From Acidiluteibacter ferrifornacis (GTDB taxonomy: Bacteria; Bacteroidota; Bacteroidia; Flavobacteriales_E; Vicingaceae), in NCBI RefSeq assembly GCF_009909615.1, contig NZ_WWNE01000003.1, forward strand, positions 347,183 through 411,182: a DNA stretch of 64,000 bases, written 5' to 3'. Positions 2,604 to 47,500 of the stretch are shown here, piece after piece. The first letter of the stretch is position 1. Each line of letters begins with the position of its first letter. The translations under genes were made by a program, and so were the position numbers. A model generated the notes under the pieces. That model saw only the letters and a list, made by a program, of their open reading frames with translations, had not been told where the DNA came from and made no database searches.

Positions 2604-4442
2604 CTATTCTACAGTAACACTCTTTGCCAAATTACGAGGTTGATCTACATTGCAACCTCTCATAACTGCAATATGATACGATAAAAGTTGTAAAGGTATA
2701 ACTGTAATCAATGGATCAAAGAAGTCGTCTACATCAGGAATTTCTATCACATGATCGGCAATTTCTTTAACAGCAGTATCTCCTTCAGTTACCACTGCTA
2801 TAATCTTCCCATTTCTAGCTTTCACTTCTTGAATGTTACTGACAACCTTTTCGTAAGAGTTCTTTTTGGTTGCAATAGCCACTACAGGCATATCTGCATC
2901 AATCAATGCAATTGGGCCATGCTTCATTTCTGCTGCAGGATACCCCTCAGCATGGATATAAGAAATCTCTTTTAACTTTAATGCCCCTTCTAATGCCACA
3001 GGGAAGTTAATACCTCTACCAAGGTATAAAAAGTTCTTTGCATCTTTGTAGATATCTGAAATGTATTCTACAGCTACGTTCGTTTCTAATACCTTTTCTA
3101 CAATATTTGGAATATTATTCAACTCTAAAGCTAACTCTCTATATCTACTTTCACTGATTGACCCTTTTTTCTTAGCTAAAGTTAAAGCCATCAATGCTAG
3201 AATAGTAACTTGGGCAGTAAAAGCTTTAGTTGATGCCACGCCAATTTCAGGTCCTGCATGGGTATAAGAACCTGCGTCAGTTGCGCGTGCAATTGAGGAT
3301 CCTACCACATTACAAATTCCATAAATTAAAGCTCCCTTTTCCTTGGCGATTTCCAATGCAGCTAGTGTATCGGCAGTTTCACCTGACTGCGAAATAGCAA
3401 TTACAATATCATCTGAATTAATAATAGGATTTCTATATCTAAACTCAGAGGCATATTCTACTTCAACAGGGATTCTTGCCAATGACTCAATCATATACTC
3501 TCCTACTAAACCTGCGTGCCAGGAAGTACCACAAGCTACAAATATGATGCGTTTAGCATTCATAAATTTATGCTCGTACTCCTCAATACCCCCCATTACT
3601 ACTTCACCATTCACAGTATTTAACCTGCCAAGCATGCTGTTCCTAATAGAAGTAGGTTGTTCATATATCTCTTTTAACATAAAATGCTCATATCCACCCT
3701 TTTCAATGGCTTCAATTTTCATTTCCAACTCAATTGTATTAGCTGTTTTTTGTTGGTTTTTAATATTTGTCAGTTGAATTTTTTCACCCTTTGTTAATAC
3801 AGCGATATCTTCATCTTCTAAATACAATACATTTTTTGTATATTCTATAATCGGTGTAGCATCGGAAGCAACATAAAATTCACCCTCTCCAACTCCAATT
3901 ACTAAGGGACTACTCTTTTTAGCAACAATTAGTGTATCAGGATCTTCTTTTGATAAAATTACAATTGCATAGGCTCCAATTACTTCCTTTAATGCTAATT
4001 GAACAGCGGTTAAAAGGGAACATTTTTCAATCTTCTTCACTTCCTCAATCAAATGAATCAAAACTTCCGTATCTGTCTCACTTGAAAACTGATGTCCTCT
4101 ATTAATTAATTCCTTTTTTAATGAATCATAGTTCTCAATAATCCCATTATGAATTAACGCCAAATTACTATCTCCTGAAGTATGAGGATGCGCATTTACA
4201 TCATTTGGAGCACCATGGGTTGCCCAACGAGTATGCCCAATTCCAATAGTAGAAGCAGTTTCCTTTCCCTCAGCATACTTCTCTAATTCAGATACTTTAC
4301 CTTGCTTTTTATATAAATTGATTCTAGTGCCTAATAGTGCTACTCCAGCACTATCATACCCTCTATATTCTAATCTTTTAAGTCCTTTTATTAATATTGG
4401 ATAAGCCTCTCTCTCTCCAACATAAGCAACGATTCCACACAT
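2604..4442 (-). CDS. glmS: Glutamine--fructose-6-phosphate aminotransferase (isomerizing)
   Basis: A 612-residue enzyme making glucosamine-6-phosphate from fructose-6-phosphate and glutamine, the entry step to UDP-GlcNAc for peptidoglycan and lipid A. MCGIVAYVGE gives the N-terminal nucleophile cysteine, exposed after Met removal. The class II glutamine amidotransferase domain covers about residues 1-220 (HTRWATHG, HNGIIENY motifs). Two SIS isomerase domains follow at about 290-420 and 460-600 (CGTSWHAG, SQSGETADT). The C-terminus PRNLAKSVTVE is the conserved GlmS tail. It is the last gene of a glgA-like/DUF4270/glmS run with only 10 bases to its neighbour, so it probably shares the promoter at 6647-6677. 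Confidence 0.98.
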   Translation of the reverse strand: MCGIVAYVGEREAYPILIKGLKRLEYRGYDSAGVALLGTRINLYKKQGKVSELEKYAEGKETASTIGIGHTRWATHGAPNDVNAHPHTSGDSNLALIHNGIIENYDSLKKELINRGHQFSSETDTEVLIHLIEEVKKIEKCSLLTAVQLALKEVIGAYAIVILSKEDPDTLIVAKKSSPLVIGVGEGEFYVASDATPIIEYTKNVLYLEDEDIAVLTKGEKIQLTNIKNQQKTANTIELEMKIEAIEKGGYEHFMLKEIYEQPTSIRNSMLGRLNTVNGEVVMGGIEEYEHKFMNAKRIIFVACGTSWHAGLVGEYMIESLARIPVEVEYASEFRYRNPIINSDDIVIAISQSGETADTLAALEIAKEKGALIYGICNVVGSSIARATDAGSYTHAGPEIGVASTKAFTAQVTILALMALTLAKKKGSISESRYRELALELNNIPNIVEKVLETNVAVEYISDIYKDAKNFLYLGRGINFPVALEGALKLKEISYIHAEGYPAAEMKHGPIALIDADMPVVAIATKKNSYEKVVSNIQEVKARNGKIIAVVTEGDTAVKEIADHVIEIPDVDDFFDPLITVIPLQLLSYHIAVMRGCNVDQPRNLAKSVTVE

Positions 4443-12380: not shown

Positions 12381-13298
12381 TTATTCGGTCGGCACTTTTT
12401 TTACTCCTGTTTCATTAAATCTAATCCCTATCATTAACTCGTGCGAGCCAGTACTATAAGTCGCAATACTAGACTGAATAAAATCATAAGAATAGCCAAT
12501 GGATAATGTGTTATTCATCGTATAACCTACTAATAAAGCTAAAGCGTCTGTTTTGCGATAAGAGAGTCCTGCCCACAACATATCATTATACGTCGCTTTT
12601 AAAGTAAATTCATACTGTAAAGGAAGCGGTTTTACATACCTCAAAACCGCTCCTGGGTCTAAAGTGAACTTTTCATTGATCTCATATTTATAGCCGGCCA
12701 TTAAGAAATAATGGTCAGCAATTTTTCCAGATCGTATTGGAGTGTCATCATATTTTAGATCACTTTTTATTAATTGCGGTGCTGATCCACCAAAATAGAA
12801 ATTGTTACCATATAGATAAAAGCTGAAGCCAACATCTGGTTTTAAAGTCGACTGCAAACTATTGTTAAACGCATTATCATTATCATTTTCAAGTATAATC
12901 TCAGATCCATCTAATGTATACTGAACGACGCCTGCATTTGCGGCTAATGAAAGTTTAATATTAGTTCCTAATTGAATATGATAGGCATATGCTAAATTAA
13001 AACCAGTACGCTTTGTTGGGCCTGTAACATCTACAAATACATACCCACCAACTCCCATGTTTTCTTTACTAAGAGGTCCATTAACACCTAAAGTAAAGGT
13101 CCGTGGAGCGTCTGTAATTCCTTCCCACTGATACCTATTGTTGGATTTTGCCTCAAAATAAGACTTTGAACCCGCAACAGCAGGATTCATTATAAAATCG
13201 TTTAATTGATATTGGGTAAACTGAGGCATTTGCTGACCAAACGCCTCAGTACATATACCAATACCTAGAATAAAGAGGATACTTAAATATTTTTTCAT
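12381..13298 (-). CDS. PorP/SprF family type IX secretion system membrane protein
   Basis: A 305-residue outer-membrane beta-barrel protein with signal peptide MKKYLSILFILGIGI, cleaved near FGQ. QMPQFTQYQLNDFIMNPAVAGSK is the family's amino-terminal hallmark (NPAVAG), and the rest alternates beta-strand-like segments ending MIGIRFNE. In Flavobacterium johnsoniae, SprF is encoded right after sprB and is needed to export it. Here the gene starts two bases after the giant SprB-repeat gene stops, so it is very probably its dedicated export or attachment partner. Its 3' end is one base from the convergent deacetylase stop. Confidence 0.93.
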   Translation of the reverse strand: MKKYLSILFILGIGICTEAFGQQMPQFTQYQLNDFIMNPAVAGSKSYFEAKSNNRYQWEGITDAPRTFTLGVNGPLSKENMGVGGYVFVDVTGPTKRTGFNLAYAYHIQLGTNIKLSLAANAGVVQYTLDGSEIILENDNDNAFNNSLQSTLKPDVGFSFYLYGNNFYFGGSAPQLIKSDLKYDDTPIRSGKIADHYFLMAGYKYEINEKFTLDPGAVLRYVKPLPLQYEFTLKATYNDMLWAGLSYRKTDALALLVGYTMNNTLSIGYSYDFIQSSIATYSTGSHELMIGIRFNETGVKKVPTE

Positions 13299-13300
13299 AA

Positions 13301-16300
13301 TTATCTTATTATCGTAATTGGTCCTGTCATTGGTTCAAATTGAGGATCATTTAAATCAATGATGTAGTAATAGGTTCCACTTGGTAGTGCCTCCCCTTTG
13401 TATGTTCCGTCCCACGGTTTAGTATACCCGTTGGATTCAAAGATATTTTCACCCCATCGGTTGAAAATTGTAACGGTAGTGTTTGGGAAATCTGCAATAA
13501 AGTATAAGTTCCAAACATCGTTAGTTCCGTCACCATTAGGAGTAAATCCAGTTGGGAATGTTATCGGCTCTTGATAGATAACCTTCATAGAATCACTTCC
13601 AATACATCCATTTGTATCTGTTACATATAACGTATAGGTAATCGTTTCTCGCGTATCAGAAGTTGGATTGGCGATGGTTGAGTCGCTTAGGTTAATACCC
13701 GGCACCCATAGGTATTTATAGGTTGCATTTTCACCTTGAATATCAATCTGAGCAATTTCATCATCAAAGATTCTAACATTTCTTCCCGCGTCAATTATTG
13801 GACTAGGGGTAACCTGAATTGTTTTAATTGCTGTATCATTACATCCCAAACCGTTAGTTGCGATCAATGCGAATTGATACATTCCTAATGAACGCTCAAA
13901 TGTAGTATCCAATGAAGTTGTGAATAGATTGAATGATGGGTAATTATACCAATCTGCATCTACAACTCCAGTCCCTAATGTAGCTCCTTTCAAGACAATA
14001 TTACCATAATCACAAATTACAGAGTCTGCACCAGGTAATGCAACTACTGTGTCTTGTGCAGCAATAAACACTGTATCAACAAACTCGCAGTTATTAGCGT
14101 CAGTTATGGTAACTAAGTTTGGCCCAAAACATAGCCCGGTAACAATATTTGAAGATTGTCCTCCACTCCATGAAATACTATAAGGGCTTATTCCTCCTGC
14201 TACGGAAATTTCTGCTGTTCCTTCACAGTTGCTACTACATGTTACATCTGTTTTAGAAACCACAGTCATCACAATAGGACTAGGAGCAGTAATAGTTGCG
14301 TTAGTAGTTGCAGAACATCCATTGTCATCAGTAACAACCACATTATATGTTCCTGCACACAAACTAGTTGCAGTGTTAGCAGTTTGGTTATTCGGGTCAT
14401 CCCATACAAACTGATATGGTAAAGTTCCTCCGATTGCATTTATAGAGACTTGACCATCACAGTTTGTGGCACAATTCATATTACTAACGACCGGCTGAGT
14501 TAAAATTAGTGGAGAAGGTTCATTAATATCGATTGTTTCGTAATATTTACATCCATCAGGAATGGTTGTTAGCTCTAAAGTATATCTCCCCGGACACAAC
14601 CCTGACGCGTCTGAATTTACTGCAGCTACTGCAGAACTATTTGCATCGAACCATTGGTAGTCAACTAGTGCTGAAGTTATGTTTGCTGTAAGTGTTCCAT
14701 CGCAACTTCCGAAGCAACTCACATCGGTTGCGGTTGGTACAGGATTAATTGGAATTGTTGTATTTGAAACAACAAATGTGAAAGTCTGTATACAGCCATT
14801 CGCATCGGAGATATCTACTGAATAGCTACCAGCACATAGGCCATCTACGTAATTGGTATCAGGTAATACTATTGGTCCCCAATTAAATGAATAAGGTGCC
14901 GTTCCTCCGGTCACATTCAATAATATTGAACCATCACAAGGGAAATTATTACATGTCGCAGGTGTTATTGTACTATTCAATACAAGTTCGTTTGGTTCAT
15001 CAACAACTACATTTGCTACTCTCATACAACCGTTTGCATCTATTATTTGTACAAAGTATGAACCCGCACATAGGTTATTTAATGTGCTAGTCGTTGCTCC
15101 ATTATGAGGCCAGAAGTATGAATATGGTGCAGTACCTCCAATTGGAGTTACGGTTGCTGTTCCATCACATGTATTTCTACAAGTGGCATCAGTCACACTA
15201 ATAATTTCGTTACTTGGACCTCCTGCATTATTGATATTAATATTAAAAGTTTCAGCACATCCATTGGCATCTCTCACATTCAAAACATAGATTCCCGCGC
15301 ATAAGTTCACTGCTTTTGTGCTATCTGATCCGTTACTCCATGTATATTGATAGGGAGCTGTTCCTCCTGATATAGTTACTTCTGCATTACCATCACACAA
15401 TCCGCATGCAGCATCATTGGTATTAAAGTTTGCAGTTATTGCTTGAGGAGATGAAATAGTATAGGTTTCGAATGTTATACATCCATTTGCATCTGTTACT
15501 CTAACAGTATATGAACCAGCGCTAAGACTAGTAATATCTTCGAATGTTAAACCATTAGGAGACCATAAATAGCGATAAGGTGCTGTACCTCCAGATACAC
15601 TAATGAATATCTCACCATCATTTAAGCCGTTACATGAAATATTTGTTGTAGAGTCCAGAGTTACAGATGGTCCATTTGTATTGGATAGACTATAAGTGAA
15701 AAAGTCTTCACAACTTGAATTATCTCTAACCCTTAAAGTATAACTTCCTGCTGCTAAACCCGTAATTACAGGGTTAGTTTGACCAACCAACAAAGTATTA
15801 GCTCCGTCAAACCACTGTAAAGAATATGGACTTGAACCTCCATTAATCGTGGCAGTTATACTTCCATTAGCTAATCCGCAGTCTGGATCAACAGAAGTAA
15901 ATGAAACTGCCACAGCTTGTGGTGACCCTACAGTTACTGTAGTTGAAAGGTCACATCCATTAGCATCAAATATTTGTACATTATAAGTACCAACACACAA
16001 TCCGGTAACATTTGCAGTTCCTTGCCCCGAACCAGGTGCTGGTGACCACACATATCTGTAGGGAGCAGTTCCTCCTATAGCATTAGCAGTAGCAGTACCG
16101 TCACAGCTATTAGCACATGTAGCATCAGTTGAAGTAGCAGTTAAGCTAAGTGGGTTTGGGGAACCTACAGCAATGGTTTCTATTGTAACACATCCAACTC
16201 CATTATCAACTTGTACATAGTAGTTACCTGCGCATAGGTTGATTGCTGTATTTGTAGTTTGACCTATTGTTAATCCAGTTGCACCATCGAACCATTCAAT

Positions 16301-19300
16301 TGAACAAGTCGGGCTTGAACAAGTGAAGCTTGCTGTTGCGGTTCCGTCACATGATCCAATACACGATTCATTAGTAGAACTCATAGTAACCACTTCTCCT
16401 CCAAAATCACTTATTGGGATAATAAATCTATTGGTGCAATTTGTATTTTGATCGGTTACTTCTACTGAATATAATCCTGCACAACGGTTAATGATTGATT
16501 GAGAAGTTACGCCTAGCGGAGTACCTATATTATCAAACCAATCATAGGTGAACGGACCTGCGCCCGAAGGCGTTACTGTTGCTGTACCACTACAAACATC
16601 ACAAGTACTAGGTGTTGAACTGGTAGTTGCCAAAATTGGTGCATCTTCAGTTATGATGACCTGGTCAGTTATTTGACAACCATTGTCATCAGTAATTGTT
16701 ACGGTATATGTTCCCGCACATAAATTTTTAATAGTATCAGTTGTTAACGAATTAGACCATACATAGCTATAAGGAGCTACACCATTAATTGGGGTAACCG
16801 AAGCTACTCCATCACAACTTCCGTTACAAGTTGCATCTATCTTCGCAATTCCTGAGCTTATTGCAAGAGGCTCTGTGATTGTAATATTTAAAGTAGTATC
16901 ACAACCGCCATTATCAGAAATAACCACCGAATATGTGCCAGCACATAGCCCATTAGCATTTGGAGTCCCCTGACCATTCGGAGGAACAGGTGTCCAAACA
17001 TAAGTGTATGCTGATCCATTACCACCGGTTGGTGCTAAGGATATTGTTCCATTGCAATCACCATTACATTTAGCATTTGCAACAACTTCATTAGGTAATA
17101 TTTTTATTGAATTGGAGATATTGAATTGTACAATTGTATCACATCCATTGACAAGATCTTCTATTAGTACTTCTATTGGTCCTGCACATAATCCTGTTGC
17201 CGTATTATTACCTTGTCCATTCGCAGGCACTGGAGTCCATGTGTAGTTATATGTCCCTGAACCGCCAGTAGGAATAACTGTGGCCGTTCCATCACATGTT
17301 GCTCCACAACTCACATTGGTAAAATTATCATTAGGAATGATTTGGAACTGTGTTCCCACAGTATTACTAGCTGTAAAAGTACACCCTGAACCGTCAGTCA
17401 CTGTCACGTTATAAGTGCCACTGCAAAGACCATTTAATGAAGAGTTTCCTTGCTGACCAGCAGGGACAGGACTCCAATTATATGAATAGGGAGGATTGAA
17501 TGATGCGGCCGGTATGGATACAGATGCTTCCCCATCACAAGAATTATCACAAGTCTCAGGAATAGTATTCATTGTAACTACATATGATCCACCTAGAACT
17601 GCATTTATTGTAGTCGTTATTGAACAATTATTATTATCTGTAATCGTTACGGTGTAAGTCCCTACACATAAGTTCTTAATTGTATCTGTAGTAGCCGTCG
17701 TAGACCAAAAGTAGGTGTATGGCCCATTTCCACCAGTAGGAGCAACAAATGCAGTTGCATCACAAATAGTTGCAGCAGCACAGCTAACAGGAGTAGATCC
17801 GGGATTAGCGATGATCTGAGTTGGAGTTCCAACAGAAACTGTATCATATGCTTTACAACCAGCTATAGCAGTAACCTCTACTATGTAAATTCCTGAAGCT
17901 AAATTAGTAGCCGTGGCAGTTGTCTGTCCGATTGGGACCCCTGTATTATTTAACCATTCAACTGTACAACTTACACCTGGATTACATGGCCCAGTTACTG
18001 TAGCTGTTCCATCTGAGAATCCAAAGCAAGAAACATCAGTGGCAGAAGTTGATATCACAGGTGCATTATTATCTACAACTATTACTGAGGCGGTATCCAA
18101 ACAACCAAAAGCATCTCTAGTAACTACGTTATAGACTCCTGCACATAAATTGTTTGCGATTGATCCCGTCTGCCCAATCGGACCAAAAGAAGCGTCGAAC
18201 CAAGTATATGTGTATCCTGGTGTCCCACCAGATGGAGTAGCTGTAGCTGTACCATTACATACCAAGCAGTTGGAATTGGTTGAAGTAGTGTTAACCAATA
18301 TATCACTTGGAGATACCAAAGTGTAGCTTATAGAGGTGTCACAACCATTCGCGTCTGATATAGTTAAATCATAAGTGCCATCACATAATCCTGATGCGAT
18401 ACTATTTCCTTGACCGTTTGCTGGAACAGGACTCCAAGTATATGTGTAAGGAGCAGTTCCACCTGCTAGATTAAATATTTCAATAGAACCATTGCAGTCT
18501 CCAAAGCAGTTATTATTAAAAATGGTATCAACAAAGGTAAAATTAGATCTCGGGGTAATGGTAAATGAATTAGTAGCGATACAAGAACTATCATCTGTTA
18601 CAGTAACAGTATAGGTTCCGGCAGACAAATTAGAAATTGAAGAATTTGTACTAAAAGTTGACCATAAATAGCTATATGGAGGAATTCCTCCGGACACTGA
18701 AGCAGCAATAGCACCATCCGCGGTCCCATTGCAACTCGTATTGGTTATTGTCCCCCCTATTGTAATCGCATTAGGTTCCGTTATTGTAATCGTCGTATCC
18801 TTAAAACATCCATTATCATCAGTTATAGTAACCGTATAAACACCAGCGGATAGATTATCTGCAATACCTGTAGTGGAAGTCGTATTTGACCAAGAGTAGC
18901 TATAAGGTGTTGTTCCATTTATTCCCGAAACTTCTATATAACCATCGTTCCCACCATTACATTTTACCATTCTTATGGAATCAAGTGATACAAAAATGGA
19001 GATTCCGTCCTGAACAACTGCACTATCTCTGGTTGTACATCCATTGCCATCGGTCACTGTAACATAATACTTTCCAGAGGTTAGCCCTGATATGGACTGA
19101 GTAGTGAATGTATTTGACCAAAGGAAAGTATATCCAGGGGCTGTTGGTCTAGGTGTTCCTCCATTTGGAGTTACAGTTGCTGTACCGTCTGCAAAACCAC
19201 TACAAGTTGCATCAGTCGAATTGGTGACAGTGGTTAATTGGGTAGGTTCTGTAATCGTGTAAGTTAAATTGGTGTCACAACCATTTCCATCTACGATATT

Positions 19301-22300
19301 AAGATTATAAGTTCCAGCACACAACCCAAGAGCACCACTGGTACCTTGCCCATTTGGAGGTATAGGATTCCAAGTATAAGTTAATGGGGCTGTACTATTC
19401 AATACATTTATAATTTCTATAGAACCGAAACAATCACCAAAACATCGATTGTGGTTCACAGAATCTACAATAGTGAAACCAGGACTAGGATTAATGTTAA
19501 AGTTTGCAACGTCAGTACACCCATTGGTATCAGTTACTGTAACAGAATATGGACCTGCTGCCAAATTATTTATTGTTGAACCAGTTTGCATATTCGACCA
19601 AACAAAGGAATAACCTGGAGTTCCGTTAATAGCAGTTGCTGTTGCATTTCCATCTGTTTTACCACTACAGCTTATATCGTTAGTAGTCACTGAAACATCT
19701 AGCTGAGCAGGCTCAGTAATGACAAAAGTAGTGTCTTTAAAACAACCGTTATCATCGGTGATAGTTACTGTATAGCTCCCTGCGGATAAATTATTCGCAA
19801 TCCCTGTTGTTGATGTAGTGTTTGCCCAAACATAAGAATAAGGCTGTGTCCCATTGATACCTGAAACTTCAATGTAACCATCATTTCCTCCATTACAATC
19901 AACCATTTTTATAGAATCAACTGAGAAGAAAATAGAGATACCATCTAGAACATCTGCACTATCTATTGCAGTACAGCCGTTTCCATCTGTTATGGTAACA
20001 TAGTATCTATTGGATGTTAACCCAGTTAAAGACTGAGTAGTTGCTGAATTAGACCACAAGAATGTATAGCCAGGAGGAAGTGCACTAGGTGTACCTCCTG
20101 ACGGAGTTACTGATACTGTACCATCTGCGAAACCACTACAGGTAGCATTAGTAGAGGAAGTAACAGAAGATATACCTGTTGCTGGCTCTCCAACCAATGT
20201 ATTGACACTAATTGAACAACCATTTTTATCGGTTACTGTTACTGTATATGTGCCTGCTAACAGATTATTTTGAGTTTGATTAGTCCCATTGTTACTCCAT
20301 AAATAGGAATAAGACGGGGTCCCTCCATTAGCTGTTACAGTCGCTGAACCACTTGCACTATCTTTACACAAAGCAGGAGATGGAGTTACAGAGGCTGATA
20401 AAACTGTAGGTTCAAAAACCGTAACAGAATCTTTCTTAGTACATCCATTACCATCTGTAATTGTAACAAGATATTTACCTGCGATTAGTCCATTAATTGT
20501 TGAGGTGGTTTGAGAATTGGACCACAAGAAGTCGTAAGCCGGTGCTGTTACTCGAGGAGTTCCTCCAGTTGGAGTTGCGGTTGCAGAACCATCTGTAAAA
20601 CCGAAACATGAAACACTATCAGAAGTTAACACTGTATTGATTGGAGTAGGCTCTGAAATGGCAATGGATATTGAACCTGTACAAGTACTGTTATCTGTAA
20701 CGGTCACGGTATATGTTCCTGCAACTACACTTTTAAGTGTATCTGAGGTTTGGTTATTGTTCCACAAATAGGTATAAGGTCCACCTGCACCGTTAGTAGC
20801 AACTACAACGGCACCTCCATCCGCACCTCCATTACAACTCACATTAATGGTATCACTTATTCTAAGATTTATCGGGTTAGAAGGTAAAATATCCACACTA
20901 TCAGCACTTGAACAACCATTTATGTCCGATACTATTATATAATACCTCCCTGCTGCAACATTCAATATTGTACTAAACGTTGATATGGTTGGACCATTTA
21001 AAGAACCGGTTTTCCACTCAAAAGAATAACCTGGGGTGCCACCTCTAGTCCCACTTACTGATGCAACACCATCGGTAGAAGAGTTACAAGTTGCGTCAAA
21101 TTTAGTGATATTGAATTCAATACTGTCTTTTTGAGTAATTGTGACAGAGTCTATTGCAAAACAACCAATCGGGTCGGTAACTGTTACATAAAACTTTCCT
21201 GCTGGTAAATTCGTTACAGAAGTATTGGTACTTCCAGAGGACCATAAATAAGTATATCCCGGGTTTGCAGGCAATGCAGTAATGTTTGCTGTTCCAGTTG
21301 AATCTCCATAACAATCTACATTTGTGCTTGATGTAGAGGTATTAATGACAGAATTCTGTCCAACCACAACTTGATCAATAAAAGGACAGTTATTGTCATC
21401 AGTTACTGTAACTGTATATGTTCCTGAAGTAATTCCTGAAATAGACGAGGTAGTTTCATTATTCGACCATAAATAGTTGTAATTACTGACAACTGTTCCT
21501 CCCGAAGCAACAATACTTGCGCTTCCATCTGAAAATCCATTACATGTTGCATTGATACCAGTAATCGTACCAGTTAAGGCAGTTGCAGGTTCAGTAATAG
21601 TCCCTGTTGCCGTTGCAGTACAAGCATTAGCATCAGTGATGGTAATCGTATAGCTTCCTGCAATTAGGTTAGTTGCATTTTGTGTAGTTTGACTATTGGA
21701 CCATAAGAAAGTATATCCCGGTGTTCCATTACCCGTTATCGTAGTGGTTAACGAACCAGTATTATTACCCTTACATAAAACATCTATTTGCGAAGTAATT
21801 GCTATACTCAAAGAAGGTGGAGCAATCAATGTAATTTGATCAGTTGCCGTACAAGCATTTGCGTCAGTAACAGTTACAGTATAAGTACCAGCTCCCAATC
21901 CACTAATAGATGAAGTTGTTGCAGTGTTACTCCATAAATAGCCAATCGCTCCTGTTCCGCCTCCATTATCAGTAGCAGTAGCACTCCCATCTGACAAGCC
22001 GTTACAAGAAGGGTTTGAAGAAGCAGTGATATTTACACTCAGTTGAGATGGCTCCGAAATTACTATTTGATCCTGAGCTGTACATCCATTAACATCACTT
22101 ACCGTAACTGTATATGTTCCTGCAATTAAACCATTAGCGGTTTGATTAGTTTGATTATCTGACCATAAGTATGAATATCCACCTGCACCTCCACCTGGAG
22201 TAACAGTAGCAGCACCATCATTCCCTCCAAAACAAGAGACATTAGTTGCAGGTAAGTTAATATTAGCGGTAACAGTACTTAGATCATTTAAAGTAATTTG

Positions 22301-25291
22301 GGTTATTGCAGTACAATTGTTTACATCATTTACAGTAACTGTATATGTACCTGCAGCTAGTCCATTTATTGTTTGTGTAGTTGCTGTATTACTCCACAAA
22401 TAGGTATAACCCGGAGTTCCGCCATTCGGGGTTACCGTAGCAGAACCAGTAGATTGACCACTACACAGAGGATTATTAAACGTATTGATCGCCGCTGATA
22501 GTGCAGTCGGTTCACTTATAGTAAAAGAATTGGTTGCTGTACATAAATTGGCATCTGTCACTGTTACAGTGTAGGTGCCTGCGGTTAATCCAGTTATAGC
22601 AGCTGAATTGACAGCATTACTCCAAGAATAGTTATAACCCGGTGTTCCGTTTGTACCTGTTGCTAATAATGCACCCTGATTTCCTCCATTACATAGGACT
22701 GCAGCGGTTTGCGAAATCGTTACACCAACCTGTGAAGGTTGAGTAATCGTTGTTTGCGCAGTAGATGTACAGTTATTAGCATCTGTTATTGTAATAGTAT
22801 AGGTTCCTGGAGCTAATCCAGAGTTTAATGCAGTAGTAGTAGCATTGCTCCACAAAAACGTATAGTTTGGAGTTCCTCCTGAGGCCTCTGCTTCTATTTC
22901 ACCGTCGGCTCCACCAAAACAAGATATATTTTTTACGGGATTTTTAATGGAAGCAACGAGAGCTGTAGGCTCATTTATGACCACTTGATCAGTAGCTGTA
23001 CAGCCATTTGCATCACTAACGGTAACGGTATAATTACCAGCTAATAGTCCATTTGCTGTTTGGGTAGTTTGATTATCAGACCATAAATAAGTATAACCAC
23101 CAGCGCCACCACCAGGAGTAACTGTTGCTACACCATCATTCCCAGCGAAACAAGATACATTTGTAGCTGGCAAATTAATTGTAGCCGTAACAGTACTTAA
23201 ATCATTCAAGGTAATTTGCGTTACTGCAGAACAATTATTGACGTCATTTACAGTAACTGAATATGTTCCGGAAGATAAACCATTTATCGTCTGGGTAGTA
23301 GCTGTGGTGCTCCATAAGTAGGTATATCCTGGTGTTCCTCCACTTGGTGTAACAGTAGCAAAACCATTCGACTGTCCATTACAAAGTGGTTGACTAAATG
23401 TATTGATAGCTGCTGACACTGTTGCTGGTTCGCCTATTGTAAACTGGTTAATTGCAGTACACAAATTAGCATCTGTAACAGTAACTGTGTATGTCCCAGC
23501 TGTCAACCCACTATTCGCAGCTGTATTTACTGAATTACTCCATGAGTAATTGTAACCAGGTGTTCCATTAGCACCTACTGCCAACAAAGCACCTTGATTG
23601 CCTCCATTACATAAAACACTTGAAGTTTGAGAAATGCTTACACTAACTTGTGCAGGCTCAGTTAACGTATTTTGAGCTATTGATGTACATCCATTAGCAT
23701 CCGTAATGGTAACAGTGTAGGTGCCAGGAGTCAATCCAGAATTTAAAGCTGTAGTAGTAGCATTACTCCATAGAAATGAATAATTTAATGTCCCTCCAGT
23801 GCCCTCAGCTTCCATTTCACCATCTGAACCACCAAAACAAGAAATATTTTTAACAGGATTCTTGATCGAAGCAACAAGTGTAGCTGGCTCCGTAATTGTT
23901 ATTTGGTCAACACCTTCACAATTATTTCCATCAAAAACAGTTACAGTATAAGTACCCGCCGCTAAACCTGTCGCAGTAGAATTTGTTTGATTATCAGACC
24001 ACAAAAAAGTATATGGAGCACCAATACCTCCTCCAGGAACTACTATCGCTGAACCATCTGCCAATCCGTTACAACTAACATTGGTGGCTGGTAACGTAAT
24101 TGATGCAGTAACAGGACTCGGATTAACTAAAGTGGTTATTGCGGTTTTCGAACATCCGTTATTATCCGTAACAGTTACAGTATAGGTTCCGGCTGAAAGA
24201 TTTATTATAGTTTTTGTATTTTGACTGTTTGACCAGACATATGAGGTGTAAGGTGAAACGCCGCCAATTCCGTTAGCAGTCAATATTCCATCTGTATTTC
24301 CGTCACAAGAAATTGGGTTTACAATTGAAATACTTGCAGACAACAAGGTTGCCGGTTCAGTAATTGAAACAGTTTGGGTAACAGCACAAGCGGTATTATC
24401 TGTAACAGTAACGGTGTAATTTCCGGGAACTAAATTAGATATTGAGGAAGTAGTTGCAGAATTAGACCACAACCAACTGTATGGACCAACACCACCACTA
24501 GGATTAGAAGATGCAGTACCATCATTATCTCCTTTACATTTTACCGGAGTTACCGTAACGTTGGGTTGTATTAAGGTTGGTCCTCCTACAGTAATATTAT
24601 CGCTTGTGGTACATCCTGCAGAATCTGTAATTGTTACAGTATAGGTTCCCACACATAAGCCGGTTATAAAATCTGTGGTTTCATTCGTTGACCAAAGGTA
24701 TTTATAGGTACCTCCAGAAAATTGCGTACCTCCAGTGGCACCTGTAAATGCCGCTCCATCACATGAACCAAAGCAAGTTTCGTCTACGGGAAACATATTT
24801 GCAGCTAAATCAATAGGATTGGTAATCGTAAAACCTTTGCTAAATGTAGTATTATCATTGGCATCAAATACCTTCAAAATATAAGAACCCCCTCCTAAAT
24901 TTTTTGCTGTATCGCCTGTGGCTACTGTCACACCAAGCAGTGTCCAAGTATAAGTAAACGGCCCTGGACTTCCAGCAAATATCGTTATAGAATTAACCCA
25001 TGCTTTACCGTCATTTGCACCATTACATGTAGGATTTTTAGTCCCAATATCTGCTCCTACAACACGAAGTGCCATAGCATCTGGAGTAGACTTTAAGTTT
25101 GCATTTAACTTTTTTGCAAAGTCTAAGCTGGGATTATGATTTATAAATTTCAAGCTATTTTCAAAAGACCAACTTTCAACAAGTACAGCTGCCTTTGCTG
25201 AGTTTACAGCAAACCCTTTTTGTGAGTAAATAACAGTTAAGAGAAAAAATAGGGGTAGTAGGCTAGATAAAAACGAATAATATCTTTTCAT
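13301..25291 (-). CDS. Giant SprB-repeat surface protein with T9SS type B sorting domain
   Basis: A 3996-residue cell-surface protein. A signal peptide (residues 1 to about 29) precedes an unrepeated stretch to about residue 80. About 47 SprB repeats of roughly 75-80 residues follow (first Cys at 89, last repeat ending near 3740). Two Ig/PKD-like segments come next, then the C-terminal CHU_C/type B sorting domain (FPTGFTPNGDGTNDVW to the end, about 85 residues) that directs export by the type IX system. The repeat pattern is C-x-G-x-x-DG, a GG turn, Y-x-W, GTYTVTVTD and a final Cys. F. johnsoniae SprB, a mobile gliding adhesin, is built the same way but is larger. A gliding or adhesion role here is inference. 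The frame is open throughout. Cysteine pattern and repeat duplications are given as findings. Confidence 0.95.
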   Translation of the reverse strand: MKRYYSFLSSLLPLFFLLTVIYSQKGFAVNSAKAAVLVESWSFENSLKFINHNPSLDFAKKLNANLKSTPDAMALRVVGADIGTKNPTCNGANDGKAWVNSITIFAGSPGPFTYTWTLLGVTVATGDTAKNLGGGSYILKVFDANDNTTFSKGFTITNPIDLAANMFPVDETCFGSCDGAAFTGATGGTQFSGGTYKYLWSTNETTDFITGLCVGTYTVTITDSAGCTTSDNITVGGPTLIQPNVTVTPVKCKGDNDGTASSNPSGGVGPYSWLWSNSATTSSISNLVPGNYTVTVTDNTACAVTQTVSITEPATLLSASISIVNPISCDGNTDGILTANGIGGVSPYTSYVWSNSQNTKTIINLSAGTYTVTVTDNNGCSKTAITTLVNPSPVTASITLPATNVSCNGLADGSAIVVPGGGIGAPYTFLWSDNQTNSTATGLAAGTYTVTVFDGNNCEGVDQITITEPATLVASIKNPVKNISCFGGSDGEMEAEGTGGTLNYSFLWSNATTTALNSGLTPGTYTVTITDANGCTSIAQNTLTEPAQVSVSISQTSSVLCNGGNQGALLAVGANGTPGYNYSWSNSVNTAANSGLTAGTYTVTVTDANLCTAINQFTIGEPATVSAAINTFSQPLCNGQSNGFATVTPSGGTPGYTYLWSTTATTQTINGLSSGTYSVTVNDVNNCSAVTQITLNDLSTVTATINLPATNVSCFAGNDGVATVTPGGGAGGYTYLWSDNQTTQTANGLLAGNYTVTVSDANGCTATDQVVINEPTALVASIKNPVKNISCFGGADGEIEAEASGGTPNYTFLWSNATTTALNSGLAPGTYTITITDANNCTSTAQTTITQPSQVGVTISQTAAVLCNGGNQGALLATGTNGTPGYNYSWSNAVNSAAITGLTAGTYTVTVTDANLCTATNSFTISEPTALSAAINTFNNPLCSGQSTGSATVTPNGGTPGYTYLWSNTATTQTINGLAAGTYTVTVNDVNNCTAITQITLNDLSTVTANINLPATNVSCFGGNDGAATVTPGGGAGGYSYLWSDNQTNQTANGLIAGTYTVTVSDVNGCTAQDQIVISEPSQLSVNITASSNPSCNGLSDGSATATDNGGGTGAIGYLWSNTATTSSISGLGAGTYTVTVTDANACTATDQITLIAPPSLSIAITSQIDVLCKGNNTGSLTTTITGNGTPGYTFLWSNSQTTQNATNLIAGSYTITITDANACTATATGTITEPATALTGTITGINATCNGFSDGSASIVASGGTVVSNYNYLWSNNETTSSISGITSGTYTVTVTDDNNCPFIDQVVVGQNSVINTSTSSTNVDCYGDSTGTANITALPANPGYTYLWSSGSTNTSVTNLPAGKFYVTVTDPIGCFAIDSVTITQKDSIEFNITKFDATCNSSTDGVASVSGTRGGTPGYSFEWKTGSLNGPTISTFSTILNVAAGRYYIIVSDINGCSSADSVDILPSNPINLRISDTINVSCNGGADGGAVVVATNGAGGPYTYLWNNNQTSDTLKSVVAGTYTVTVTDNSTCTGSISIAISEPTPINTVLTSDSVSCFGFTDGSATATPTGGTPRVTAPAYDFLWSNSQTTSTINGLIAGKYLVTITDGNGCTKKDSVTVFEPTVLSASVTPSPALCKDSASGSATVTANGGTPSYSYLWSNNGTNQTQNNLLAGTYTVTVTDKNGCSISVNTLVGEPATGISSVTSSTNATCSGFADGTVSVTPSGGTPSALPPGYTFLWSNSATTQSLTGLTSNRYYVTITDGNGCTAIDSADVLDGISIFFSVDSIKMVDCNGGNDGYIEVSGINGTQPYSYVWANTTSTTGIANNLSAGSYTVTITDDNGCFKDTTFVITEPAQLDVSVTTNDISCSGKTDGNATATAINGTPGYSFVWSNMQTGSTINNLAAGPYSVTVTDTNGCTDVANFNINPSPGFTIVDSVNHNRCFGDCFGSIEIINVLNSTAPLTYTWNPIPPNGQGTSGALGLCAGTYNLNIVDGNGCDTNLTYTITEPTQLTTVTNSTDATCSGFADGTATVTPNGGTPRPTAPGYTFLWSNTFTTQSISGLTSGKYYVTVTDGNGCTTRDSAVVQDGISIFVSLDSIRMVKCNGGNDGYIEVSGINGTTPYSYSWSNTTSTTGIADNLSAGVYTVTITDDNGCFKDTTITITEPNAITIGGTITNTSCNGTADGAIAASVSGGIPPYSYLWSTFSTNSSISNLSAGTYTVTVTDDSSCIATNSFTITPRSNFTFVDTIFNNNCFGDCNGSIEIFNLAGGTAPYTYTWSPVPANGQGNSIASGLCDGTYDLTISDANGCDTSISYTLVSPSDILVNTTSTNSNCLVCNGTATATPSGGTPGYTYTWFDASFGPIGQTGSIANNLCAGVYNVVTRDAFGCLDTASVIVVDNNAPVISTSATDVSCFGFSDGTATVTGPCNPGVSCTVEWLNNTGVPIGQTTATATNLASGIYIVEVTAIAGCKAYDTVSVGTPTQIIANPGSTPVSCAAATICDATAFVAPTGGNGPYTYFWSTTATTDTIKNLCVGTYTVTITDNNNCSITTTINAVLGGSYVVTMNTIPETCDNSCDGEASVSIPAASFNPPYSYNWSPVPAGQQGNSSLNGLCSGTYNVTVTDGSGCTFTASNTVGTQFQIIPNDNFTNVSCGATCDGTATVIPTGGSGTYNYTWTPVPANGQGNNTATGLCAGPIEVLIEDLVNGCDTIVQFNISNSIKILPNEVVANAKCNGDCNGTISLAPTGGNGSAYTYVWTPVPPNGQGTPNANGLCAGTYSVVISDNGGCDTTLNITITEPLAISSGIAKIDATCNGSCDGVASVTPINGVAPYSYVWSNSLTTDTIKNLCAGTYTVTITDDNGCQITDQVIITEDAPILATTSSTPSTCDVCSGTATVTPSGAGPFTYDWFDNIGTPLGVTSQSIINRCAGLYSVEVTDQNTNCTNRFIIPISDFGGEVVTMSSTNESCIGSCDGTATASFTCSSPTCSIEWFDGATGLTIGQTTNTAINLCAGNYYVQVDNGVGCVTIETIAVGSPNPLSLTATSTDATCANSCDGTATANAIGGTAPYRYVWSPAPGSGQGTANVTGLCVGTYNVQIFDANGCDLSTTVTVGSPQAVAVSFTSVDPDCGLANGSITATINGGSSPYSLQWFDGANTLLVGQTNPVITGLAAGSYTLRVRDNSSCEDFFTYSLSNTNGPSVTLDSTTNISCNGLNDGEIFISVSGGTAPYRYLWSPNGLTFEDITSLSAGSYTVRVTDANGCITFETYTISSPQAITANFNTNDAACGLCDGNAEVTISGGTAPYQYTWSNGSDSTKAVNLCAGIYVLNVRDANGCAETFNININNAGGPSNEIISVTDATCRNTCDGTATVTPIGGTAPYSYFWPHNGATTSTLNNLCAGSYFVQIIDANGCMRVANVVVDEPNELVLNSTITPATCNNFPCDGSILLNVTGGTAPYSFNWGPIVLPDTNYVDGLCAGSYSVDISDANGCIQTFTFVVSNTTIPINPVPTATDVSCFGSCDGTLTANITSALVDYQWFDANSSAVAAVNSDASGLCPGRYTLELTTIPDGCKYYETIDINEPSPLILTQPVVSNMNCATNCDGQVSINAIGGTLPYQFVWDDPNNQTANTATSLCAGTYNVVVTDDNGCSATTNATITAPSPIVMTVVSKTDVTCSSNCEGTAEISVAGGISPYSISWSGGQSSNIVTGLCFGPNLVTITDANNCEFVDTVFIAAQDTVVALPGADSVICDYGNIVLKGATLGTGVVDADWYNYPSFNLFTTSLDTTFERSLGMYQFALIATNGLGCNDTAIKTIQVTPSPIIDAGRNVRIFDDEIAQIDIQGENATYKYLWVPGINLSDSTIANPTSDTRETITYTLYVTDTNGCIGSDSMKVIYQEPITFPTGFTPNGDGTNDVWNLYFIADFPNTTVTIFNRWGENIFESNGYTKPWDGTYKGEALPSGTYYYIIDLNDPQFEPMTGPITIIR
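18320..20190 (-). repeat. Tandem duplication of a four-repeat SprB block, period 936 bp
   Basis: Within the giant gene, repeats 22-25 and 26-29 (N to C order) correspond one to one: TCSGFADG, CNGGNDGYIEVSGING, a variable repeat, and CFGDC-x-GSIEI. Two separate anchor matches (18954 against 19890, 19195 against 20131) are both offset by 936 bp, or 312 codons. The boundaries given are approximate. Confidence 0.8.
22040..24120 (-). repeat. Tandem duplication of a four-repeat SprB block, period 918 bp
   Basis: Repeats 5-8 and 9-12, followed by repeat 13, follow the same order: LPATNVSC, KNPVKNISCFGG, VLCNGGNQGALLA, PLC-x-GQS. Anchor matches at 22271/23189 and 22914/23832 are offset by exactly 918 bp; the next step (23189/24110) is 921 bp. 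The boundaries are approximate. Confidence 0.82.
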
Positions 25292-25492: not shown

Positions 25493-26416
25493 CTATTCAA
25501 AAACTGGGCAAATAAATTTAGGCTTTGGTCCATTCTTAAAGCAGTTTCCAAATCCTATTATAACTTCATGAGTGGGACCAAGCTGTTGACTATTTGTTAA
25601 AAATGGAATCTCATAAGTGTAACCAACTTTGAACTTATCCCATAATTTAAAATTTAGGTTGACTTGTAACGACCTAAAAGTTCTAACTCCTGCACCAAAG
25701 GAGATAACATTATCATAATCCGCAAGAAAGTTAATATCGGCAGACGGACTTAAGAAAGGGTTTATACGCACTAATGTAGAAGGCATAAAATTCCAGAATC
25801 CATAAGTTATTTTATGATAAAATGTTGCAAACAAATGCTGTCGAAGTCGAGCTTGATCTCCTATTTTCCCCCAATCTTTTGGATAGGCTTGAAACAATGA
25901 AACTCCCAAACCAGACTTTTGAGTGTATAAAAAAATTCCAGGAGATACTTCTGGAGCTACATAAGCCCTATTGCTTTTATAGGCTGGATCTTGGGTGTTC
26001 AAAAATGAAGCATCGGCTAACCCCATCTGCTGCATACCTCCAAATACACCCATTGACATTTTATATTTCTTCCAGAGTCTCAAATGATAGGCATAACCGA
26101 TTTTTAGGTAATTAATATTAAAAATCCCCACCGATTGATTTTGAAAATATAGTCCAAGCCCTTGCTTTTTAAAACTATTTCGCTCACTCTTATTTAGCAT
26201 GAAATTGATACTAAAAAAATTGACTTCTGGTGCTCCATACAAATCTGTCCATTGCACCCTTCTGCCTGCTCTCATTTCAAAACACTGTTGCAACCCAGCG
26301 ACCGCGGGGTTCAAAGAAAAAGGATCTAAAATGTAATTGCTAAAGGTGGCTATTTGCTGGGAGCATAGAGATTGAACAATAAAAAACAAACTTACGACTA
26401 TAACTCTGCCTTTCAT
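25493..26416 (-). CDS. Second PorP/SprF family outer-membrane protein
   Basis: A 307-residue PorP/SprF-type barrel protein with signal peptide MKGRVIVVSLFFIVQSLC and the family hallmark SNYILDPFSLNPAVAG just after cleavage. It is a paralogue of the protein at 12381-13298 but clearly diverged: this one carries a few cysteines, including CFEMRAG, and ends in a Pro/Cys-containing tail. Its ATG overlaps the stop of the small sorting-domain gene upstream by four bases (ATGA), so the two are translationally coupled. By analogy with sprB-sprF it is probably the partner of that small protein. Confidence 0.92.
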   Translation of the reverse strand: MKGRVIVVSLFFIVQSLCSQQIATFSNYILDPFSLNPAVAGLQQCFEMRAGRRVQWTDLYGAPEVNFFSINFMLNKSERNSFKKQGLGLYFQNQSVGIFNINYLKIGYAYHLRLWKKYKMSMGVFGGMQQMGLADASFLNTQDPAYKSNRAYVAPEVSPGIFLYTQKSGLGVSLFQAYPKDWGKIGDQARLRQHLFATFYHKITYGFWNFMPSTLVRINPFLSPSADINFLADYDNVISFGAGVRTFRSLQVNLNFKLWDKFKVGYTYEIPFLTNSQQLGPTHEVIIGFGNCFKNGPKPKFICPVFE

Positions 26417-27003
26417 CTCAATAAAGTTATATAACCAGAAAAAGAACCTTTTTCACAGAGTGTACTAGCGGTTACCAGATAAAAATAAGTACCTTCTGGT
26501 AGCGGCAAACCATTGTGAATTCCATCCCATGTTTGTAACGCATTGGTAGTTGTGGTTTTAAATACACGTTGACCATATTGATTGATAAAAACTATTTCAA
26601 CATTTACAATGTTGTTAGTGATAGTGATACGCAACTCGTCATTAATCCCATCATCATTGGGACTAAATGCATTACCAATTCCAAATTCATTCCTCAGTGG
26701 ACGATTTTCAACTAAAACTGTACTTGTATCTATACAACCAAGACTATCTCTTGTCAATAACAAATAAGCTCCAGGAGTTAAATTATCCAATCTATTATTT
26801 GCACTAAAATCAGTGTTGTTTAGAGCCCATAAGTAGGGGGCTGTTCCACCACTAGATCTAGAGATTCTTATAGAGCCGTTTGCTGTATTGCAGATGGTTG
26901 GTGTGGTTTGAAAATTGGTGTGAATCAATATAGAATCACACTGTGAAAAAGAATTGCTTTGAATCAAAAAGAACCCAATAAGAAATAGTAATTGCTTAAT
27001 CAT
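26413..27003 (-). CDS. Small T9SS type B sorting-domain protein with a single SprB-like repeat
   Basis: A 196-residue secreted protein. A signal peptide (MIKQLLFLIGFFLIQSNSFS) is followed by one SprB-like unit (about residues 30-100: CNTANGSIRIS, GGTAPYLWALN, LTPGAYLLLTRDSLGC). The CHU_C/type B C-terminal domain starts at GNAFSPNDDGIND and ends GYITLLR. It therefore has the giant protein's architecture reduced to one repeat. Export by type IX secretion and surface attachment follow from the C-terminal domain. It is coupled to its own porP/sprF gene. Function is unknown; it could be a baseplate, a tip protein or a small adhesin. Confidence 0.88.
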   Translation of the reverse strand: MIKQLLFLIGFFLIQSNSFSQCDSILIHTNFQTTPTICNTANGSIRISRSSGGTAPYLWALNNTDFSANNRLDNLTPGAYLLLTRDSLGCIDTSTVLVENRPLRNEFGIGNAFSPNDDGINDELRITITNNIVNVEIVFINQYGQRVFKTTTTNALQTWDGIHNGLPLPEGTYFYLVTASTLCEKGSFSGYITLLR

Positions 27004-44577: not shown

Positions 44578-47500
44578 CTATTTAATCGTAACACGAACCC
44601 CATTACTATGGGAAGTAAATTCAGGCGCATACATACATTGCACCTGCGTAATCCCATTGGAAAATTGCCCCGAAATATTAGCTCTCAACTCATATTCAAA
44701 AATATAGACTCCTTTTCTCAAATAAGAGATGAAGAAATTAGTAGCTGCATCTTTTGTACTTTCATAATAGCCTAAACCATCTTGATATTTATAACTTGAT
44801 ATTACGTTTATCGGCTCAAATCCTGATGCTCGCATATCTTTTAAATGCACAAATTCTAAATCTCTGTCGGAACGCAACTCCACTCTTACAATCACCTTAT
44901 CTCCTAGTTTGATAGGAGTCTTTTCTGTAACCTTTTGAAGCTGTTTTCCTGAATTAGTTCTTACTTCAATGAATAACTCTTTTTCTAATTTCAATGGTGT
45001 TTCCGCAAAAGTAATTTTATCCAAATCCTCAAAATACTGCCAGTAAGCTGCACCCCAAGCCACACCTTCGTTTGATTTTTTAACCGTTATGTTTCCCATT
45101 TTTGGAGACACATCTCCACCAGTCCACGATTTCTTAAAGTAGCCTGTACCGGCTTCCGTTTTCAACGATGGATCATTTGCTGGATCTAATTGCTGATCTC
45201 CAACAATTAAACTCACTGTATTTTCCATTGTCAATACATCCGTTCCTTTCAACAATAAAGCATAGCAAGCATCAGCCGTAGCTTTAGTGGTTTTCCAATC
45301 TTGAGTTTGCTTTTGTTTCAGCAACCATACTTTTAATAATTCTAAGGAGGTCTTATCATCTAACACCTCATCAAAAGCCTCTATCATCAGCGCTTGAGTT
45401 TCTATTGGCGCTTGATTCCAATAATACCCTCTTCGATTGTCTTTCCAATACATGCCCATTTCATCATTGTAAATAGCAATGTCTTTCGCTGCTTTCATGA
45501 TTGTTTTGGCAACTTCTACATCCTTATAGCGATTTGCGGAAAGTGCGATCATCCCTCTCAACTGCAAACTATAATCTAACCAATACTGCTTGGACTGCTT
45601 GTAATAATAGTCGAATGCGACTTTGTTTACAGATGAAATTTCCTTTTCAATAAAGAAGCTTCTAGCATAAAAATACTGAATCTGAAAGGAAGAAATCTGT
45701 TTTTTACTTAAATCAGCTTTGTGATAGATTAATCTATCATAGTCCGCTTTTAATTCAGCGTCTAAATAAGCAATTGCTTTATCTAGCATCTGTCTTAATT
45801 CCGTGTTCTTTTCGAAATCAATCATACCTAACTGCTTCAAATGTCCAAAACCACTTACGATGTGTTGAGTGATGTATCGATTTTCCCTTCCGCCATCAAA
45901 CCATGGCCAAGCACCAGAAGAATACTGCATCTGAACCAGCTTTTTGGTAGCTCGACTCAGTTCTCTTTCCATCTTATCCAGCTGGAACAACTCACCCAAT
46001 CGTCGTTTGCGTTCACTCTCGTCTTTTGCATTTCTCAACCATGGAGTTTCTTCAATCACCAACGCTTTCAACTCTTGATTTTTCTCTAGGTTAGAAAGCA
46101 AAGCATCCGGCTGATACTGTCTCCAGATTTCAAATACACGTTTTATTTTAGGATCTGAATTAGCGATGTGTGTTGCAATGGTATTCGCATACAATCGGCT
46201 AAACGTTTGCTCAGCACATTCGTAAGGGTACTCCATTAAATACGGCAAAGCCTGAATAGCATACCAAGCAGGATTCGAGGTGTATTCTATTGTAAATCGC
46301 TCATTAGTCAATGTAGACGAAGTATTATTCACCAACTTATCAAACGTGAATTGCTTGCTTCCTTTTCCATTCATTGGCAATGGCAGCGTTTCTGTCACTA
46401 ACATTCTATTCGTCAATACAGGAATCGTTCGCTCTTCACCATCACTGTGCGTTTTGCTTTCGCCGATGATTTTATAGGTCACAGCTTGCAACCCTTTCGG
46501 GATAGTGATTTGCCAACTCACTACTTCATTTCCTTTTGAAGAAATAGTCATCTTTTTATTCGCTTTATCTTTGGCCAATAAGTTAATCGGCTTCATGGTT
46601 AAAGCATCAAAAAAGGCAATAGTGGCTGCAACTTCTTGCTCCTTGTCGCTAATATTGGCCATTTTAGTTTTGAACACCAACGTATCTCCTTCTCTAAAGA
46701 AACGCGGAGGATTCGGCATGACCATCAGCTCTTTCTGAGCTACAATTTCTTCTAACGTTGTTCCAATTTTTAAATCGGTGGTGTGCGCCATTGCCATAAA
46801 CTTATATCGCGTCAATGCATCGGGCATGGTAAAAGTAAAATCTACTGTACCGTCTTCATTTGTTTCTAAATGTGGATAAAAGAAAGCCGTTTCTCGGAAG
46901 TCGGAGCGAATGGAAGGAGGTGTAGTTGGAACAGAAGTAGGATTTGTCATCGACTCTTTCTCAACAACCTCCACATCAGCATCACTTACTGACCTAACAG
47001 CCATAGACTGTACTTCCTCAGCATATACTTCACCTTTGGAAAAGCTCATTGCAGCATCATATTGAACACCATAGTTTCTATTATAATATTGTCGATCTCC
47101 TTCAAATCCAAAAAAATTCAATCCTTTATAATTTAAAGGGGAGGGTAAGTTATTACCCTTTGGCTCAAAGTAATTAGCAGCACTTACTCTTCTAAAATAC
47201 TGATCCGATTGCCAATTAGAACGACTATAGTTATTACTGTACGGGAAAAAATTCCAACTATTGGCTTGAAACACATCCAAGCTTTGATCGTACATAGAGG
47301 CCAACACTTCCGCTTGCACCGACTTTTTCTCTACATCAGTTACCGTTAGCGACCATGCCTCTTTATTTCCAGGCTCGGTTACATTTCTAAAGGTGCTCAG
47401 TTTAACATTTAACTGTTTATTGCTGTATGGCACTGTATATTCCATCGATTGATTGAATGAGCGATTATCATAAACCATTAGTAGATTCACACGAAAACCT

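Follow-up and report, generated by a model that had tools for sequence, protein, structure and literature searches.

A disulfide ladder between neighbouring repeats is predicted for a giant SprB-repeat surface protein of Acidiluteibacter ferrifornacis

SprB of Flavobacterium johnsoniae, which is served by the carrier SprF, is one of the described systems closest to the locus analysed here, with which it shares SprB repeats, a CHU_C type B domain and an adjacent PorP/SprF carrier. In F. johnsoniae, disulfides link SprF with GldK, a protein of the moving track, and carry the gliding force (PMC12635249), SprF bonding GldK through a CxC tail. In the literature searched, we found no description of inter-repeat disulfides or of cysteine pairing in SprB proteins. 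The grappling hook protein GhpA of Aureispira sp. CCB-QB1 (PDB 9FLP-9FLY, 9G8B) is likewise a giant Bacteroidota protein of tandem Ig-like domains; it differs in its length of 5898 aa and in forming hook structures. Covalent hardening of such stalks has been described for a 7651-aa adhesin of Mobiluncus mulieris, in which tens of Ig-like repeats are reinforced by covalent cross-links (PMC10619420). Those isopeptide, ester and disulfide links lie within domains, whereas the main bond that we propose here would lie between neighbouring domains.

The window (the whole stretch of 64,000 nucleotides that was analysed) encodes a protein of 3996 aa with 136 cysteines on the minus strand (ORF 13301-25291). 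Its N-terminal end is a hydrophobic signal, its SprB repeats (PF13573) score 904.6 bits in 35 stretches, above the curated cut-off, and its C terminus is a CHU_C type IX secretion (T9SS type B) domain scoring 86.9 bits (cut-off 27). With repeats, CHU_C domain and adjacent carrier all present, this is a SprB-repeat T9SS surface protein. The carrier encoded directly downstream differs from SprF of F. johnsoniae in that it contains a single cysteine and ends in ...GVKKVPTE, lacking the twin-cysteine (CxC) tail. We therefore did not class the giant protein as a gliding adhesin; judged by its neighbour, it may be anchored but not driven, and possibly not of the gliding type. SprB-repeat proteins occurred in 347 of 395 sampled genomes of the organism's class, and open frames with SprB repeats reached 10,249 aa (G001 contig C9, about 381000-408000) and 11,129 aa (G028 contig C34) elsewhere. 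The window also encodes a bacterial alpha-2-macroglobulin of 2008 aa with MG2, A2M and bMG10 domains (44578-50604, minus strand).

Repeats of the giant protein were extracted by the position of C1, the cysteine near the repeat start, which yielded 47 repeats; C4 denotes the cysteine near the repeat end, and C2 and C3 the two extra cysteines that some repeats carry (Table 1). C1 was found in 47/47 repeats and C4 in 46/47, being absent from repeat 1 alone. The first-pass annotation had described the extra cysteines as all-or-none, and extraction reproduced its list of four-cysteine repeats exactly (2, 25, 29, 30, 32-39 and 42-47): 18 of the 47 repeats had both C2 and C3, 29 had neither, and there were no exceptions. 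The spacing of three to five residues that it gave for C1 and C2 applied to repeats with 3 (repeats 30, 37 and 42), 4 or 5 (repeat 44), but repeat 32, with 6, is slightly wider. The third closely spaced pair in repeats 31 and 38 was present as described, as was the C-terminal concentration of the four-cysteine class (15 of its 18 members lie within residues 2329-3758). Two further Ig-like domains, 48 and 49, which that annotation had missed, follow repeat 47, and the cysteines of domain 48 are invariant across eight homologues.

Table 1. Features of the giant protein and its neighbours, in window positions
Feature	Position	Strand	Basis
PorP/SprF-type carrier, 305 aa, directly downstream of giant protein	12381..13298	-	PF11751 1.4e-74
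Giant SprB-repeat surface protein	13301..25291	-	Pfam: SprB PF13573 2e-280, CHU_C 1e-24
CHU_C type IX secretion C-terminal domain, 0 Cys	13304..13561	-	Pfam CHU_C
Last Ig-like domain 49, aa about 3831-3906; C4 = Cys3896, no C1	13574..13801	-	
Degenerate Ig-like domain 48, aa about 3745-3830; C1 = Cys3760, C4 = Cys3817	13802..14059	-	
Repeats 42-47, aa 3283-3758, four-Cys	14018..15445	-	repeat extraction
Repeats 32-39, aa 2491-3124, four-Cys; repeat 38 with local pair Cys2991/2996	15920..17821	-	
Repeat 31, aa 2409-2490, two-Cys with B-C-loop pair Cys2436/2442	17822..18067	-	also in repeat 31 of orthologue L031
Repeats 29-30, aa 2249-2408, four-Cys	18068..18547	-	repeat extraction
Repeat 25, aa 1937-2016, four-Cys; close paralogue of repeat 29	19244..19483	-	repeat extraction, comparison
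Repeat 2, aa 160-238, four-Cys: 173, 177, 213, 227	24578..24814	-	repeat extraction
Repeat 1, aa 76-159; C1 = Cys89, no C4	24815..25066	-	repeat extraction
Second PorP/SprF-type carrier, 307 aa	25493..26416	-	PF11751 7.2e-45
One-repeat CHU_C protein, 196 aa	26413..27003	-	Pfam and sequence

An AlphaFold2 model of repeats 38-41, built from an input alignment of 83 four-repeat stretches, gave six strands per repeat (in repeat 38, residues 5-10, 20-26, 34-39, 52-56, 59-66 and 72-79) with a pLDDT of 94.8 and a pTM of 0.73, so that the relative orientation of the domains is less certain than the single domains. Within repeat 38 of the model, the A-B loop holds C1 (residue 14) and C2 (18), the B-C loop the local pair (28 and 33), the E-F turn C3 (57) and the F-G loop C4 (71). 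An Ig-like fold has its A-B and E-F loops at the C-terminal pole, and the B-C and F-G loops make up its N-terminal pole. C2 and C3 thus share one pole, C1 and C4 of a single repeat stand apart, and C1 of repeat i faces C4 of repeat i+1. A second model, spanning repeat 47 and everything C-terminal of it (pLDDT 81, pTM 0.49), placed Cys3817 of domain 48 and Cys3896 of domain 49 each between the two final strands of its domain. The model of repeats 38-41 matched tandem Ig chains end to end with Z scores of 9-12, including titin and NCAM; titin I65-I70 and NCAM also carry their Ig-like domains in a row, and to our knowledge neither has a chain of domain-to-domain disulfides. The top fold match was GhpA of Aureispira (Z about 12). 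No solved structure was found by phmmer with the whole giant protein; an alignment-profile search recovered GhpA with an E value of 2.8e-41, and in the aligned segments its cysteines occupy the same C1 and C4 positions. The deposited GhpA structures may already show inter-repeat disulfides.

The idea that C1 of one repeat pairs with C4 of the next came from the ends of the giant protein, and was then tested in other proteins. Pairing C1(i) with C4(i+1) matches its 48 C1 and 48 C4 cysteines exactly, with none left over. In the proposed wiring, C1 in the A-B loop at the C-terminal pole of repeat i would bond C4 in the F-G loop at the N-terminal pole of repeat i+1, and 48 such bonds, running from repeat 1 to domain 49, would staple each domain junction. 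The two ends would be capped by loss of the cysteine that has no partner, C4 in repeat 1 and C1 in domain 49. In the four-cysteine class, a C2-C3 bond would tie the E-F turn to the staple-bearing A-B loop, and repeats 31 and 38 would hold an additional local bond in the B-C loop. A continuous ladder of this kind, clamped within repeats by C2-C3, is in our judgement very likely, and its mechanical role is suggested by its topology. One observation that counts against it is that VKOR was not found in the organism's own genome.

The interleaved inter-repeat bonds would form two edge-disjoint covalent paths through the stalk, so that domains could not be pulled out singly and no single backbone cut would sever it. 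The shortest covalent path computed from repeat 1 to domain 49 at full stretch was 251 nm if the inter-repeat bonds form, compared with 517 nm with within-repeat bonds and 1379 nm without bonds; at an assumed 3.5-4.5 nm per domain, the 49 domains in a folded row would measure 171-220 nm. With the inter-repeat wiring, no backbone bond in the stretch from residue 100 to residue 3890 severed the computed chain, against 1323 with intra-repeat bonds. This topology suggests that the ladder may stiffen a long T9SS surface adhesin and protect it against proteases. The wiring could also be right and yet serve protein folding, secretion or resistance to proteases instead of bearing load, a reading that we regard as possible but doubtful. 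T9SS substrates do pass through an oxidising periplasm, no single nick would sever a ladder, and the neighbouring carrier has no CxC tail of the kind that couples SprF to the track (PMC12635249), so the adhesin may be non-gliding. Against a role without load, each junction has a predicted bond and these bonds circumvent the domain cores, as would be expected in a tension member.

We next turn to other SprB proteins for the C2-C3 pair. Set 1 comprised 80 loci of the GTDB collection together with loci of the organism's own genus (about 90 loci), giving 1857 unique repeats, and a fresh set comprised 40 loci with 1068 repeats, none of them identical to any in set 1. The co-occurrence held in other SprB proteins of Bacteroidota with few exceptions: in set 1, 343 repeats had both cysteines, 1481 had neither and 33 were discordant, several to many of the last being misaligned repeats of another PKD-like class. 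A systematic scan of cysteine positions ranked C2-C3 first (p = 2.5e-298). The fresh set gave 160 repeats with both, 869 with neither and 37 discordant, many of these again belonging to the PKD-like class just mentioned. When the C2 and C3 columns were left out of tree building, about 5.8 independent changes went in the same direction and 0 in opposite directions. Where C3 occurred without C2, 10 of 12 aligned repeats had, by inspection, a substitute cysteine shortly after the central W. The natural reading of these data is a second disulfide, C2-C3, and two repeat classes, as the first-pass annotation had claimed; this predicted bond within the repeat is well supported because the A-B loop and the E-F turn share one pole of the modelled fold.

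Other cysteine patterns were also seen. The main real exceptions to the C2-C3 rule were L166, L182, L107 and L089, which have C-x-x-C at the repeat start and no cysteine in the turn. A further strict pair joined positions T+3 and T+17/18 (31 of 32 cases in sets 1 and 2; for example L063 and the C-terminal domain of L048) and likely connects strands F and G. The F-strand cysteine at T+4 was considered as a third paired position and rejected, since it was a lone residue (119 of 154 without a partner) confined to few lineages. L056, L061, L076 and similar loci contain more than 100 repeats with a lone F-strand cysteine (Y-x-C) and no co-varying partner.

The ends of the chains followed the same polarity in other proteins. 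Among 21 proteins with a locatable C-terminal domain (CTD), the last Ig-like domain before it had C4 in 21/21 and lacked C1 in about 19/21, the count being made partly by inspection. One of the two terminal domains that truly keep C1 belongs to the 26413-27003 protein, whose CTD has a cysteine in its final loop. Presence of C1 in the last domain was not associated with the presence of any cysteine in the CTD (p = 0.62), since C1 is missing from almost every terminal domain; it was this test that exposed the C-terminal cap. At the other end, first domains after the signal peptide usually lacked C4, and where C4 was kept a cysteine was usually found at the mature N-terminus (counts 9/2/4/15; OR 17, p = 0.002). 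In the 26413-27003 protein, Cys21 at the mature N-terminus, Cys38 (C1), Cys90 (C4) and Cys182 in the CTD appear to supply the protein with its own N-cap and C-cap in this wiring, in which Cys21 would partner C4 and Cys182 would partner C1.

Covariation between neighbouring repeats pointed in the same direction. In set 1, 1670 junctions had both C1(i) and C4(i+1), 38 had neither and 21 were discordant, and by inspection the discordant junctions were mostly those with a slightly displaced C1, about 8 being real. Under a second calling rule the same comparison gave an OR of 501 (p = 1.3e-50). Informative junctions, those with a missing cysteine, are few beside the ~1700 that hold both. When C4 was shuffled within arrays of set 1, 9.2 co-absences were expected and the maximum in 2000 shuffles was 17, against 34 observed. 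The fresh set gave an OR of 572 (p = 1.5e-6) from only three co-absences, and within-array permutation alone was not significant there (3 co-absences versus 1.3 expected). Joint loss of C1(i) and C4(i+1) was found in 17 loci, including L040, another protein of the organism's own genome.

Such covariation might merely reflect shared descent of repeat subfamilies, since these repeats arose by tandem duplication and neighbours tend to belong to the same class (C3-C3 between neighbours, p = 6e-169). Yet on a tree of repeat pairs built without the cysteine columns, independent contrasts for C1(i) and C4(i+1) still gave about 6.5 changes in the same direction and 0 in opposite directions, as the C2-C3 pair also co-changed. 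In addition, the link joins different columns of neighbouring repeats with a fixed polarity, and it is mirrored by the end caps and the substitute cysteines. We give descent by itself a slim chance. Covariation and end caps together strongly imply that the cysteine pairs are disulfides.

A disulfide between C1 and C4 of the same repeat, supplemented by C2-C3 in the four-cysteine class and with no bonds between repeats, was the arrangement implied by the first-pass annotation. It would account for the near-universal occurrence of both C1 and C4 and for the co-occurrence of C2 and C3. However, the presence of C1 in set 1 was independent of that of C4 in its own repeat (OR 0.93, p = 1), which was also the case under the second calling rule (OR 1.46, p = 0.32), so that loss of C1 did not predict loss of C4 in its own repeat, and the tree control for this pair gave 0 same and 2.1 opposite changes. 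Covariation was found only between neighbours; the A-B and F-G loops lie at opposite poles of the modelled domain, and within-repeat pairing leaves Cys89 and Cys3896 of the giant protein unpaired. This first disulfide of the annotation did not hold up, and we consider it very unlikely. A bond from C4(i) to C1(i+1), the pair nearer in sequence at about 25 residues and weakly associated (OR about 10), is scarcely credible, as the association is about 50-fold weaker than that of C1(i) with C4(i+1) and can be explained by arrays that alternate, L114 being one, four cysteines of the giant protein would stay unpaired, and the end caps would have the wrong polarity. In one array of L114 (Aquimarina brevivitae), eight junctions, placed in near alternation, have lost both C1(i) and C4(i+1), which would leave every second junction unstapled.

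The orthologue in a sister species, L031, has 4139 aa and also 136 cysteines. Repeats 1-4 and 28-47 of the giant protein have one-to-one matches in it with identical classes, and it shares both the end caps, its repeat 1 also lacking C4, and the third pairs in repeats 31 and 38. The middle parts of the two proteins consist of two-cysteine units that have been amplified differently. By this comparison, the class map is an old, position-specific feature. The first-pass annotation had placed the four-cysteine class nearest the anchor, which is correct as a position, but much of the pattern is history: repeats 28-47 are orthologous and the middle was amplified from two-cysteine units, so that the contrast between the halves arose partly because two-cysteine repeats were amplified later. 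Recent block duplications were seen at residues 472-1082, where repeats 6-9 and 10-13 are 80-83% identical, and at residues 1705-2328, where repeats 22 and 23 are 73-78% identical to repeats 26 and 27; the amplification of L031 repeats 17-27 differs from that in the giant protein.

Beyond this protein, we lean towards the view that SprB-repeat proteins are generally covalent ladders, hardly extensible and able to survive any single cut, in which four-cysteine repeats would form a conserved, hardened segment near the membrane. If the proposed ladder is correct, crystallography constructs would need at least two whole repeats. SprB-repeat adhesins would then be double-path covalent rods, unlike the Gram-positive solution of isopeptide and ester bonds within domains, and this would explain the resistance of such long stalks to pulling and to proteases. 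It would also agree with the role of disulfides in carrying gliding force at the SprF-GldK link. Few building blocks of surface proteins in Bacteroidota are as common as SprB repeats.
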